NCBI GenBank assembly: GCA_027307405.1
Contig: DAHUXA010000015.1
Location: forward strand, 1-38,623
Origin: Hyphomicrobiales bacterium
GTDB lineage: Bacteria > Pseudomonadota > Alphaproteobacteria > Rhizobiales > Xanthobacteraceae
DNA length: 38,623 bases
Direction: 5' to 3'
Every line of letters begins with the position of its first letter. Within the stretch, counting starts at the first letter, position 1. The notes beneath the pieces were generated by a model. That model made no database searches. It had not been told where the DNA came from and worked only from the letters and a program-made list of their open reading frames with translations. The position numbers and the translations under genes are program-made. Shown here piece after piece: positions 22,590-34,164 of this stretch.

Positions 22590-23018
22590 GTGACGTCTTT
22601 CACTTTCCGCAGGCAACTAACGATTGAGTGGGGCCAATGCGACCCGGCGGGAATCGTGTTCAATAGCCGTTTCTTCGAAATATTCGATTCCAGCTCCTGG
22701 CAACTGTTCGAGGCGGCGCTCGGTGTAAAGCCGCAAGAGCTCGCAACTGCTTTTGGCATCATAGGCATTCCGCTTGTGGACGTGCGCGCCAATTTTCTCA
22801 AACCGATAAAATTCGGCGATGTTGTAGACGTCACTTCCCGGATCAACGAGTTCCGCCGTTCCAGCTTCGACGTTGAACATCGGCTCTCGGTCGATGGCGA
22901 ATTGGCAGTCGAAGGCGGTGAAACCCGCGTGTGGGCGGCCCGCAGCAAGGATGACCCGGAAAAGATCGGCGCAACCGCAATCCCAAGTGACGTGATCGCC
23001 AAGTTCGGGACGGCGTAA
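22590..23018 (+). CDS. 4-hydroxybenzoyl-CoA-thioesterase-family acyl-CoA thioesterase (GTG start)
   Basis: LTIEWGQCDPAGIVFNSRFFEIFDSSSW matches the hotdog 4HBT (x)DxDPAGIVxxxxYxxxxD active-site signature. Confidence 0.85.
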   Translation: MTSFTFRRQLTIEWGQCDPAGIVFNSRFFEIFDSSSWQLFEAALGVKPQELATAFGIIGIPLVDVRANFLKPIKFGDVVDVTSRINEFRRSSFDVEHRLSVDGELAVEGGETRVWAARSKDDPEKIGATAIPSDVIAKFGTA

Positions 23019-23152
23019 TCGTTCCAGCCATTCCCGGGAATTGGCTTGGAGAAGCCCTTCGGCCCGCTGCGTCGTGGCGCTAGTATCCCCTGTTGTACCG
23101 TCAATAATAATGATGAGACGCGCGTGTACGCGCGTTTGAGGGGACGAAACGC

Positions 23153-23635
23153 TTGGCCCGTCTGCTTGAATGCAGGCTCAATGGGCGTGATCGCGCCGAT
23201 GCGGTCGCGGATAACGTCCTGTTGCTCGATTATCTGCGCGAAAAGGTTGGCCTCACCGGCACAAAGACCGGTTGCGATGGCGGAGAATGCGGTGCTTGCA
23301 CGGTACTGATCAATGACAAGCCGACACTCTCTTGCCTCACTCTGGCAGTGACCGTGCACGGCAAGCGCGTGGACACCATCGAGTCCCTCGGTGTGGATGG
23401 ACAACTGTCCGCCGTGCAACGTGGATTTCACGAGAAACTTGGCTCGCAATGCGGTTATTGCACACCGGGCTTCATCATGGCCTCGGCCGGACTCTTGAGG
23501 AAAAACCCAAACCCAAGCGAAGCAGAGATTCTGGAAGCGCTTGGCAGCAATATTTGCCGCTGCACAGGCTACGTGAAAATCATCGAGGCGGTGAAATTTG
23601 CCGTGGCGCTGAATGCGCAAGGGGTGCCCCCGTGA
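23153..23635 (+). CDS. hcrC: 4-hydroxybenzoyl-CoA reductase gamma subunit, 2x[2Fe-2S] (TTG start)
   Basis: [23 protein letters not shown] and [14 protein letters not shown]...[15 protein letters not shown]; operon context with hcrA/hcrB. Confidence 0.88.
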
Positions 23636-25962
23636 ACAAGGCTGTCCCGGCGCACAACATCGGTTCCTATGTGCCAATGATTGATGGCCCGGAGAAAGTC
23701 TCCGGCCGCGCCAAATATACTGCCGACATTTTACAGCCCGGCATGCTCGCTGGCCGCATCTATCGCAGCCCATATTCACACGGCGAGATCGTTTCCGTGG
23801 ATGTATCGGAGGCTCTCAAAGTTCCCGGGGTCATGGCGATCGTAACCGGCGCCGACTGCGACAAGACTTTCGGTGTGCTCCCGATTGCTCGCAGCGAGCA
23901 TCCGCTGGCACGCGACAAGGTGCGCTACCGCGGTGAGCCGGTCGCCGCCGTTGCGGCCGTCGATGATGCCGCAGCGCGCGAGGCGATCCGGCGGATCAAG
24001 TTCACCGTGCGTGAATTGCCCGCATATTACACCGCCAAGGATGCGCTCGCGCACGGGGCCGCGCTGTTGCACGAAAAGAAATCCGGGAATGTCGAACGCG
24101 ATGTCCTGTTCGAATTGGGTTCGACCACACAAGGCTTTGCCGAAGCCGATCTCGTGCGCGAGGCTATCTATAACTGCGCCGAGGTTTGCCAGAACCAGAT
24201 GGAAATGCACGCCGCAGTGGCCGAGTATGATGCGGTGCGCGACCGCATGACGGTGCATGCCTCGACTCAAGTGCCCTACTACGTGCACCTGATGTTGTCG
24301 CAAATCCTCGGCATGGACATGTCGCGCATCCGCGTGATCAAGCCGCATGTCGGTGGGGGTTTCGGCTGCCGCACCGAGACACTGAATATCGAACTGATCG
24401 CAGCGCTTCTCGCTCGCAAGGTCACCGGCACGGTGCGTATCGTTACCACTCGCGAGGAGACGTTCATTACCCACCGCGGTCGGCCAGAGACCGACATCAA
24501 GCTCAAGATGGGAATGCGCAAGGACGGCCGAATCACTGCGGTCGAATGCGATTGCGACCAGCGCGGCGGCGCACACAGCGGTTATGGCGTGGTGACGATC
24601 CTCTATGCCGGCTCGATGCTCTACGCCATCTACGACCTGCACAACGTGAAATACCTCGGCAGGCGCGTGCTTACCAATACGCCGCCCTGCGGCGCCTTCC
24701 GCGGCCACGGCACGGTGGACATTCGCTTTGCATTCGAAAGTCTCGTTGATCAGATGGCGGCGGAGCTGAATCTGGACCCCTTCGCTGTCCGGCGCGCCAA
24801 TCTGCTGACAGCACCAACCTTCACCGACAACGACTTGATGGTGAATTCCTACGGCCTGCCGGAATGCCTCGATTGGGTCGAGAAAGAAAGCGGCTGGCGA
24901 AAACGCAAAGGCAAGCTCGCCAAAGGCAAGGGTCTCGGCATGGCGTGCTCGCACTACATCTCGGGTGCCTCCAAACCGGTGAATTGGACGGGCGAACCGC
25001 ATGCAACCGTAAAGATCAAGCTCGATTTCGACGGCTCGATTGTTGTGCTCTCGGGTGCCGCCGATATTGGACAAGGCTCGACCACCATTCTTGCGCAAAC
25101 CGTTGCAGAAATTCTGGGCCTCGACCTAGCGCGGGTGCGCGTTGTGACGGGGGATAGTGAGGTCGTGCCAAAGGACAACGGCTCATACTCCTCGCGCGTC
25201 ACTTTCATGGTGGGCAATGCCGCGCTCGATGCGGCCCGCAATCTGAAGGCAGTGCTTGTCAGTGCGGCGGCCCGCAAACTGGAGGCGCGTCCTGAGGACA
25301 TCGAATGCCTGGGCGAAATCTATCGCGCCGGCGCGCAAGACAAGGGTGCAACGTTCGATGAAGTCGTAACCGAGGCGCTCAAGGACACAGGCACCATCAC
25401 CGTCACCGGCAATTATTCGACCATTCCGGAGTCGCACGGCGGCAAGAAATATCGCGGTGCCGCCATCGGCGGCACCATGGGCTATAGCTATTCGGCGCAG
25501 GTCGTCGAGGTGACCGTTGACGGGGAAACCGGCGTCGTCACCGTCGACAAGGTCTGGGTCGCGCATGACTGCGGCAAGGCGCTGAACCGGCTAACGGTGG
25601 AAGGCCAAGTGCAAGGTTCGGTCTGGATGGGCATGGGCCAGGCCATGAGTGAAGAGGCTGCTTATCACGATGGCCTGATGGTCACAGCGAACATGCTCGA
25701 CTACCGCGTCCCTACCATTCAGGATTCCCCGCCGATCGAAGTCGGCATCGTCGAAAGCAATGATCCGCACGGGCCGTTCGGCGCCAAAGAGGCGGGCGAA
25801 GGCTCGCTCGCCGCCTTCCTGCCCGCATTGACCAACGCCATCGCCGACGCCATCGGCATTCGCTTCAACGATTTGCCGGTGACACCTGATCGCGTGTTCG
25901 AGGCGATCGAGAAGCGCAAGCGCGCTCTTGAAAAATTGCCGAAGAAAAACGGGAGTATGTAG
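23632..25962 (+). CDS. hcrA: 4-hydroxybenzoyl-CoA reductase alpha (molybdopterin) subunit (GTG start, 776 aa)
   Basis: [17 protein letters not shown]...[25 protein letters not shown]...[11 protein letters not shown] (catalytic Glu region); GTGA overlap with hcrC; size near known HcrA. Confidence 0.88.
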
Positions 25963-32753: not shown

Positions 32754-32797
32754 CAACCAGAGTAAGAGTAAGGAGCCGGCCGCTGCCGGGATGAGAG

Positions 32798-33826
32798 ATG
32801 AGTGAAACAATCAAGACCGATGTTCTCATCATCGGTGCAGGCCCGGTCGGCCTATTCGCGGTATTCGAGCTTGGCCTTCTCGACATCAAGGCGCACCTTG
32901 TCGACATTCTCGACAAGGTCGGCGGCCAATGCGCCGAGCTTTATCCGGAAAAGCCGATCTACGATATTCCTGGCATTCCGTTCATTACCGGCCACGGCCT
33001 GACCGACGCATTAATGCAGCAAATCAAGCCTTTTCACCCGACCTTCCACCTCGGGGAAATGGTCACAACGCTGGAAAAAATCGGCGAACCACTTTTCCGT
33101 TTGCGCACTGACGCCGGCAAGACCTTTGAGGTGAAATGCGTGGTGATTGCAGCCGGGGGTGGCTCCTTCCAGCCTAAGCGCCCGCCAATCCAAGGCATCG
33201 AGCCTTACGAGGAAAAGTCTGTGTTCTACGCTGTACGCAAAATGGATGCCTTCCGCGGCAAGCGGCTGCTCATCGTCGGCGGTGGCGACTCGGCACTGGA
33301 CTGGACGCTCAATTTGCAGCCGATCGCCAAACGTTTGACGCTCGTACACCGGCGTGACGAATTCCGTGGCGCCCCCGACAGTGTGAACAAGATGCGTGCG
33401 TTAGTCGCTGCCGGCGGCATGGACCTGAAAATCGGTCAGGTGACCGCGCTTGAAGGTGGTGACGGCAAGCTCACGGCCTGCTCCATCAAGGGCAGTGACG
33501 GCGCCGCTTCACGCATCGAAGTCGATGCCATGCTCCCATTTTTCGGTCTCACCATGAAACTTGGCCCGGTGGCGGACTGGGGTCTTAGGATGGAGGACGA
33601 ACTGATCCCAGCAGACACAGCTGCCTTCGAGACCAATAGTCCCGGCCTGTTCGCAATCGGCGACATCAACACCTATCCGGGCAAGCTCAAGCTGATCCTG
33701 TCCGGCTTCCACGAGGCCGCGCTGATGGCACAGAAGGCTCACCGCTACGTCTATCCGGAGAAGAAATTGGTGTTTCAATACACCACCTCCTCCACCAGTT
33801 TACAGAAGAAGCTTGGCGTCGCCTGA
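32798..33826 (+). CDS. Thioredoxin-reductase-like ferredoxin--NADP(+) reductase
   Basis: [51 protein letters not shown] and [17 protein letters not shown]; no CxxC redox pair; resembles R. palustris/Bacillus TrxR-like FNR. Confidence 0.9.
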
Positions 33827-33840
33827 CGCAATAAGACGCA

Positions 33841-34164
33841 ATGCCGAAAATTACCTACATCGAACACGACGGAACGAAGCACACGGTCGAGGGCGAGCTC
33901 GGATCAACGGTGATGGAGACCGCCTTACGTAATAACGTCGCAAGCATCGTCGCTGAATGTGGCGGTTCGTGTACCTGCGCCACCTGCCTGGTGCATGTCG
34001 ATGAAAAGTGGTTCTCTGTCGTCGGCCCGCCCTCGGCGGAAGAAGAAGAACAGCTCGACGCCGCCTTTGAGGTAAAACCGACCTCGCGGCTGTCGTGCCA
34101 GATCAAGGTGACGGAAGCGCTCGACGGGCTCGTGGTGCACACTCCGGCCTACCAAGGCCGTTGA
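33841..34164 (+). CDS. [2Fe-2S] ferredoxin, adrenodoxin/putidaredoxin type
   Basis: MPKITYIEHDGTKHTVEGELGSTVMETALRNNVASIVAECGGSCTCATCLVHV...SRLSCQIKV (C-X5-C-X2-C...C). Confidence 0.93.
   Translation: MPKITYIEHDGTKHTVEGELGSTVMETALRNNVASIVAECGGSCTCATCLVHVDEKWFSVVGPPSAEEEEQLDAAFEVKPTSRLSCQIKVTEALDGLVVHTPAYQGR

Follow-up and report, generated by a model that had tools for sequence, protein, structure and literature searches.

A contig of 38,623 nucleotides (DAHUXA010000015.1 in assembly GCA_027307405.1, C66 in our numbering) from a soil Hyphomicrobiales bacterium of the family Xanthobacteraceae is referred to in its entirety as the window below; the host genome assembly comprises 4.1 Mb in 459 contigs and is 93% complete. 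In this contig, genes for an enzyme of the 4-hydroxybenzoyl-CoA reductase (HCR) type, which is assigned to the anaerobic breakdown of aromatics, lie directly against genes of the Box pathway, which uses O2 to epoxidize benzoyl-CoA and open its ring. On balance we favor the reading, unproven as it is, that the HCR of the window is an isozyme dedicated to supplying the Box pathway. Because this is a second, distinct HCR inside the box cluster, and because relatives keep it without the anaerobic pathway, the strongly reducing dehydroxylation probably feeds an oxygen-requiring pathway.

Gene calls were based on profile searches with curated family cut-offs (TIGR, PRK and NF models). The plus-strand order is thioesterase-hcrC-hcrA-hcrB-aryl-CoA ligase, in which hcrCAB and the ligase are tightly packed into an operon with some overlap (the GTG start of hcrA overlaps hcrC by 4 bp) and with its 3' end 5 bp from boxB; boxB and boxC lie tail-to-tail to it on the minus strand, and boxR, a ferredoxin reductase and a ferredoxin follow on the plus strand. 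All the genes named in the original prediction made from this DNA (hcrC-hcrA-hcrB and a ligase against boxB-boxC, with a BoxR-type regulator adjoining) are present and intact, but the open reading frame at 22590, where that prediction began the locus, is the thioesterase and not hcrC, which occupies 23153-23635, with hcrA starting at about 23632. The features are as follows.

22590..23018, plus strand: 4HBT-type acyl-CoA thioesterase (PF13279, 52.8 bits; best match in the Protein Data Bank (PDB), 1bvq)
23153..23635, plus strand: hcrC, gamma subunit with two 2Fe-2S clusters, putative TTG start (TIGR03193, 238.3 bits)
23632..25962, plus strand: hcrA, molybdenum (Mo)-binding alpha subunit of a window-type (clade 2) HCR (TIGR03194, 1155.5 bits, cut-off 994.6; 1rm6_A, 962.7 bits)
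25962..26978, plus strand: hcrB, FAD-binding beta subunit with the HCR-specific 4Fe-4S insert (TIGR03195, 415.2 bits, cut-off 404.6)
26998..28584, plus strand: aryl-CoA ligase of the benzoate-CoA ligase family (TIGR02262, 737.6 bits, cut-off 375.3; PDB 2v7b, 4rlf)
28589..30031, minus strand: boxB, diiron subunit of benzoyl-CoA 2,3-epoxidase (TIGR03225, 881.9 bits, cut-off 499.1; 3per, 679.7 bits)
30034..31734, minus strand: boxC, 2,3-epoxybenzoyl-CoA dihydrolase (TIGR03222, 912.3 bits, cut-off 712.3)
31730..31743, no strand: BoxR operator-like site TGCATTATTTTGCA, the sole exact TGCA-N6-TGCA in the window
31815..31828, no strand: second, imperfect BoxR operator-like site AGCAATATAATGCA, one mismatch to TGCA-N6-TGCA
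31845..32753, plus strand: boxR, XRE and shikimate-kinase-like regulator (PRK08154, 389 bits, cut-off 204; HTH and SKI domains)
32798..33826, plus strand: thioredoxin-reductase-like ferredoxin-NADP reductase (5ygq, 595.7 bits)
33841..34164, plus strand: 2Fe-2S ferredoxin of the adrenodoxin/putidaredoxin type (3hui, 124.3 bits; PF00111)

HcrA and HcrB both exceed the cut-offs of their families, and HcrC, for which the corresponding HCR family is the best match, contains the motifs CxxxxCxxC...C and CxxC...CxC. Tyr326 and Glu726 of the Thauera HcrA (1rm6_A) are kept in the window protein, as are the 4Fe-4S ligands Cys122/138/146/155 (1rm6_B numbering) of HcrB, which are invariant in 56/56 HcrB sequences; this additional cluster distinguishes HCR from other enzymes of the xanthine oxidase family. 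Since HcrC stays under its cut-off, we class the window enzyme as HCR-type, within a divergent clade, and reductive dehydroxylation of 4-hydroxybenzoyl-CoA is its predicted activity. In BoxB, all six positions reported as the diiron ligands of 3per (Rather et al. 2011) are kept (Glu120, Glu150, His153, Asp211, Glu240 and His243 in 3per numbering). The divergent boxC-boxR region holds both operator-like sites, the exact one retained at the same place in most relatives, and they match the published BoxR motif, TGCA-N6-TGCA (PMC6449761).

A second HcrA, which scores higher than that of the window in the family search (1313 bits), is encoded at C432:7679-9916, on a contig that also carries subunits A and D of benzoyl-CoA reductase (BCR), the canonical hcrBAC, a ligase, acyl-CoA dehydrogenases and a CRP-type regulator; B/C-type BCR subunits (PF06050) are found on C451. 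With a canonical HCR and BCR subunits on other contigs, the genome has its own set of anaerobic genes, which makes the HCR of the window an additional isozyme. BCR genes, for which a check elsewhere in the genome had been proposed, were thus recovered on both contigs; the same check found pobA at the end of an 11.7-kb contig, the only contig searched for pcaGH, and pcaGH was not seen on it. The original prediction had been of a hybrid pathway from 4-hydroxybenzoate to benzoyl-CoA and on into Box, bypassing the PobA/protocatechuate route. Its core, an HCR feeding Box, is borne out by the phylogenetic profile, by gene order (the position of BoxD included) and by promoter differences. The simple hybrid had to be abandoned in view of the canonical HCR and BCR subunits, and so had the bypass, since PobA is present and that route is not replaced; 4-hydroxybenzoate as the substrate became uncertain, as the window set departs from the canonical one both in its ligase pocket and in its HcrA motifs.

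When 58 HcrA sequences are placed in a maximum-likelihood tree, Thauera and the canonical HCRs, mostly of BCR genomes, separate from window-type HcrA with 100/99 support, and the 23 window-type sequences of the family form one group (96/86). The residues common to window-type HcrA are C187, Q188, L348, F357 (in all but one of the 23) and N453; their canonical counterparts are N/T, H, Y, M and H, in that order. The H188Q change as a marker of HCRs outside BCR genomes was rejected, as L234/L236 (family f149) have Q188 in class I BCR genomes; in G585, with a Q188-type HcrA in f149, class I BCR adjoins hcrA. Among other homologs, a lone divergent hcrA-like gene (L139:8952, G038:C1:346464; 56% identity) has no hcrB or hcrC detected alongside, and four same-genus homologs of the Mo-hydroxylase large subunit, each with one in-frame stop (G092:C55 TAG, G225:C2 TAG, G264:C7 TAA, G192:C75 TAG), are probably decaying genes.

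The two clades also differ in their promoters. A CRP/FNR-like palindrome, TTGAYTTNNGTCA, stands upstream of canonical hcrC in 14/15 loci (shuffles give 0.03) and in 0/32 window-type upstream regions; as the motif was derived from the canonical set, its presence there merely describes that set, and the test lies in its absence elsewhere. In the canonical loci L117 and L143-L156, it is often repeated at a distance of about 50 bp. An FNR-like TTGAT-N4-ATCAA upstream of the window thioesterase, with 2 mismatches, was rejected because across the clade it is no more frequent than expected by chance.

Within the limits set by contig ends, six further genomes of the genus show the gene order of the window, so the arrangement is not due to chance. 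The order is seen in L001/L141, L124, L129, L142 and L132, the last three being interrupted by contig ends or BoxD (L132 and L142 break off at contig ends), and L125 agrees up to its contig end, which precedes box. Genomes of the same genus that lack the module (L002-L011, L254) have the thioesterase directly against boxB, and hcrCAB-ligase is therefore a cassette at that junction. BoxD, as predicted at the outset, lies outside the window, and no match was found in the window or in the host genome at 1e-80; in four relatives, it is located within the HCR module itself (NF008868, 753 and 740 bits, cut-off 444), adjoining the ligase in G298 and G312, and with boxBC on another contig in G192 and G020. 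In an independent case, that of genus g29, a stretch of about 25 kb holds bcr, canonical hcr and boxCB, with the canonical HCR at most about 5 kb from boxCB.

The distribution of these genes across genomes was surveyed with BCR defined as class I (BcrD and PF06050). HcrA is above its cut-off in 41/392 genomes of the family. BcrD accompanies canonical HCR in 24/25 of the genomes that have it, and the 16 genomes with only window-type HCR have BcrD in 0/16, PF06050 in 0/16 and BoxB in 14/16, the two BoxB-negative ones being 65% and 69% complete. In a class-wide sample of 385 genomes, BoxB occurs in 20/21 HcrA carriers and in 61/364 others (Fisher p ~6.5e-14), or in 13/13 and 42/264 when counted by genus, which is the co-occurrence across Alphaproteobacteria that had been proposed as a check. 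BCR-less HCR carriers with BoxB are also found in families f67 and f105 and in G039, whose HCR is canonical; in f105 and f67, no aromatic-pathway partner apart from an acyl-CoA dehydrogenase was seen among the hcr neighbors.

For the route as a whole, we infer the substrate, direction, electron donors and oxygen regime as follows. The cluster ligase would activate a para-hydroxylated benzoate, most likely 4-hydroxybenzoate, and HcrABC would reductively strip the para-hydroxyl group to yield benzoyl-CoA, which BoxB would epoxidize with O2 before BoxC opened the ring; the thioesterase probably frees CoA from stalled aryl-CoA. BoxA, the usual reductase of the epoxidase, gave nothing above cut-off in the window or genome by profile search, and it is absent in 47/61 BoxB-positive genomes of the family, complete genomes among them, so that its absence is typical of the family and the reductase must often be replaced there. 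The original prediction mentioned neither this absence nor the ferredoxin reductase and ferredoxin encoded at 32798-34164. Electrons for BoxB would then probably pass from NADPH through the adjacent ferredoxin reductase to the 2Fe-2S ferredoxin. That the reductase beside boxR serves BoxB is inference from position: it is the sole copy found in the genome and single in 17/17 genomes, and a box-specific reductase as BoxA substitute was rejected on those grounds, only its position being notable. In genus g29, a 1035-residue fused NfnAB-like flavoprotein with a ferritin-like domain (PRK12775; L251:10280-13384) is encoded directly downstream of boxB and might supply electrons in genomes lacking BoxA. 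The route is likely active at low or fluctuating O2, with the separate canonical HCR and BCR covering strict anoxia.

Several observations weigh against a dedicated HCR feeding Box. HcrC falls about 20 bits short of its cut-off of 257.8 and has a putative start codon; window HcrA departs from that of Thauera by N187C, H188Q, Y348L and M357F; no TGCA-N6-TGCA operator was found upstream of the hcr arm; and the ferredoxin reductase is a single housekeeping copy. BoxB is present in 29/38 HcrA-negative controls of the family, and co-occurrence within the family alone is therefore weak, the informative contrast there being the absence of BCR. G601, 98% complete, is a real exception, with a window-like HCR and neither BCR nor BoxB. 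Finally, the acyl-pocket motif of the window ligase, GSTELLQTF, matches the signature of neither benzoate ligases (LHIF) nor canonical HCR-linked ligases (GHLF).

This last point bears on the first of the alternatives, in which the wiring is the same and the HCR and ligase of the window type handle a different para-hydroxylated aryl-CoA (e.g. protocatechuoyl-CoA), with the result that a substituted benzoyl-CoA enters Box or that the product is used outside Box. GSTE[ML]LHIF is the motif of most Box benzoate ligases and GSTE[ML]GHLF that of the canonical HCR-linked ones; the ligases linked to window-type HCR have a third pocket type, GSTE[ML][LF]QTF (GSTEMLNTF in one), and the HbaA-like 4-hydroxybenzoate-CoA ligase motif, GSTEMGHLF, was not found in the window ligase. 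Clade-wide HcrA changes (N187C, H188Q, Y348L, M357F, H453N, P601I) point the same way, and PobA is available for ordinary 4-hydroxybenzoate. As the pocket and several HcrA motifs differ from the canonical ones, the substrate may not be plain 4-hydroxybenzoate, and the hydroxybenzoyl-CoA species reduced may differ from 4-hydroxybenzoyl-CoA, which is the main doubt attached to the favored reading. We nevertheless consider a different substrate rather unlikely, in that HcrA and HcrB pass cut-offs built for 4-hydroxybenzoyl-CoA reductase, Tyr326, Glu726 and the 4Fe-4S ligands are kept, and the thioesterase resembles 4-hydroxybenzoyl-CoA thioesterase: its closest solved structure is 1bvq, with the catalytic Asp of CDPAGIV retained. 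The thioesterase gene is near hcrC in most clade-2 loci and adjoins boxB in HCR-less relatives; on its other side, a 240-residue open reading frame without an NCBIfam match (21805-22527) keeps its place across the genus.

The second alternative holds that the HCR beside box is a spare anaerobic paralog put there by recombination, its benzoyl-CoA going to BCR and the two halves being active at different times. The host genome and most box-linked genomes of genus g1 do have BCR, no BoxR site precedes hcr, and HCR and Box are each frequent in metabolically versatile genomes, but class I BCR is missing from the 16 window-type-only genomes and from f67 and f105, BoxD lies within the module, and the CRP/FNR box is missing upstream of window-type HCR, all of which makes this explanation improbable. 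That the Mo enzyme instead hydroxylates benzoyl-CoA to 4-hydroxybenzoyl-CoA, from which the thioesterase would free 4-hydroxybenzoate for PobA, would suit a mostly hydroxylating xanthine oxidase family, the adjoining 4-hydroxybenzoyl-CoA-type thioesterase and the PobA of the genome, but is very improbable because the HCR-specific 4Fe-4S insert, tied to inverted electron flow by the title of Unciuleac et al. 2004 as cited in PMC10420851, is kept.

Elsewhere in the window, a response regulator and a 1115-residue multidomain sensor kinase lie directly past the ferredoxin (34210-37943), and sulfite-reductase-type genes are grouped at 10383-19843 (cysG, a PRK06214 reductase, cysI and a second cysJ), among them one for a 931-residue NirA/CobG-like protein with an additional N-terminal part of 335 residues.

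Returning to the dedicated isozyme, a wider and more tentative version would make the CQNQ-type HCR subfamily an obligate reductive step before O2-dependent Box in BCR-less bacteria, one oxic or microoxic route shared by several alphaproteobacterial lineages. If the whole clade serves Box, the presence of HCR genes would not by itself tell surveys of genomes and metagenomes that benzoyl-CoA is degraded anaerobically; if true, strongly reducing chemistry would be maintained in O2-using cells, which raises questions on electron supply and O2 protection.

The window enzyme shares with the HCR of Thauera aromatica (1rm6/1sb3) and the hba/hcr system of Rhodopseudomonas palustris the three subunits, the Mo site residues, the 4Fe-4S cluster and an adjoining aryl-CoA ligase, but its HcrA belongs to a separate clade with clade-wide residue changes, and it is linked to box instead of bcr, without a CRP/FNR-like box and with a third type of ligase pocket. 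BoxB, BoxC, BoxR, the TGCA-N6-TGCA operator and, in some relatives, BoxD are in common with boxABCD-boxR of Azoarcus/Aromatoleum evansii, whereas the window genome lacks BoxA and has a ferredoxin reductase and ferredoxin alongside and an embedded hcr module. The thioesterase has the fold family and catalytic Asp motif of 1bvq, at low overall similarity (57 bits) and in an HCR/box context, while that of 1bvq is dehalogenation during 4-chlorobenzoate degradation. The concept has a precedent in the 3-(4-hydroxyphenyl)propanoate network of Aromatoleum aromaticum EbN1, where a presumptive reductive dehydroxylation to benzoyl-CoA is drawn as common to anaerobic and aerobic growth and, aerobically, as feeding Box (PMC9765128). 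No description of a box-embedded HCR arrangement was found in open-licence papers on HCR together with box or epoxidase. In EbN1, a betaproteobacterium, the step is a presumptive shared one; the window presents a second, box-embedded isozyme in Alphaproteobacteria, of a clade kept also in BCR-less genomes, and such a dedicated isozyme appears to be undescribed.

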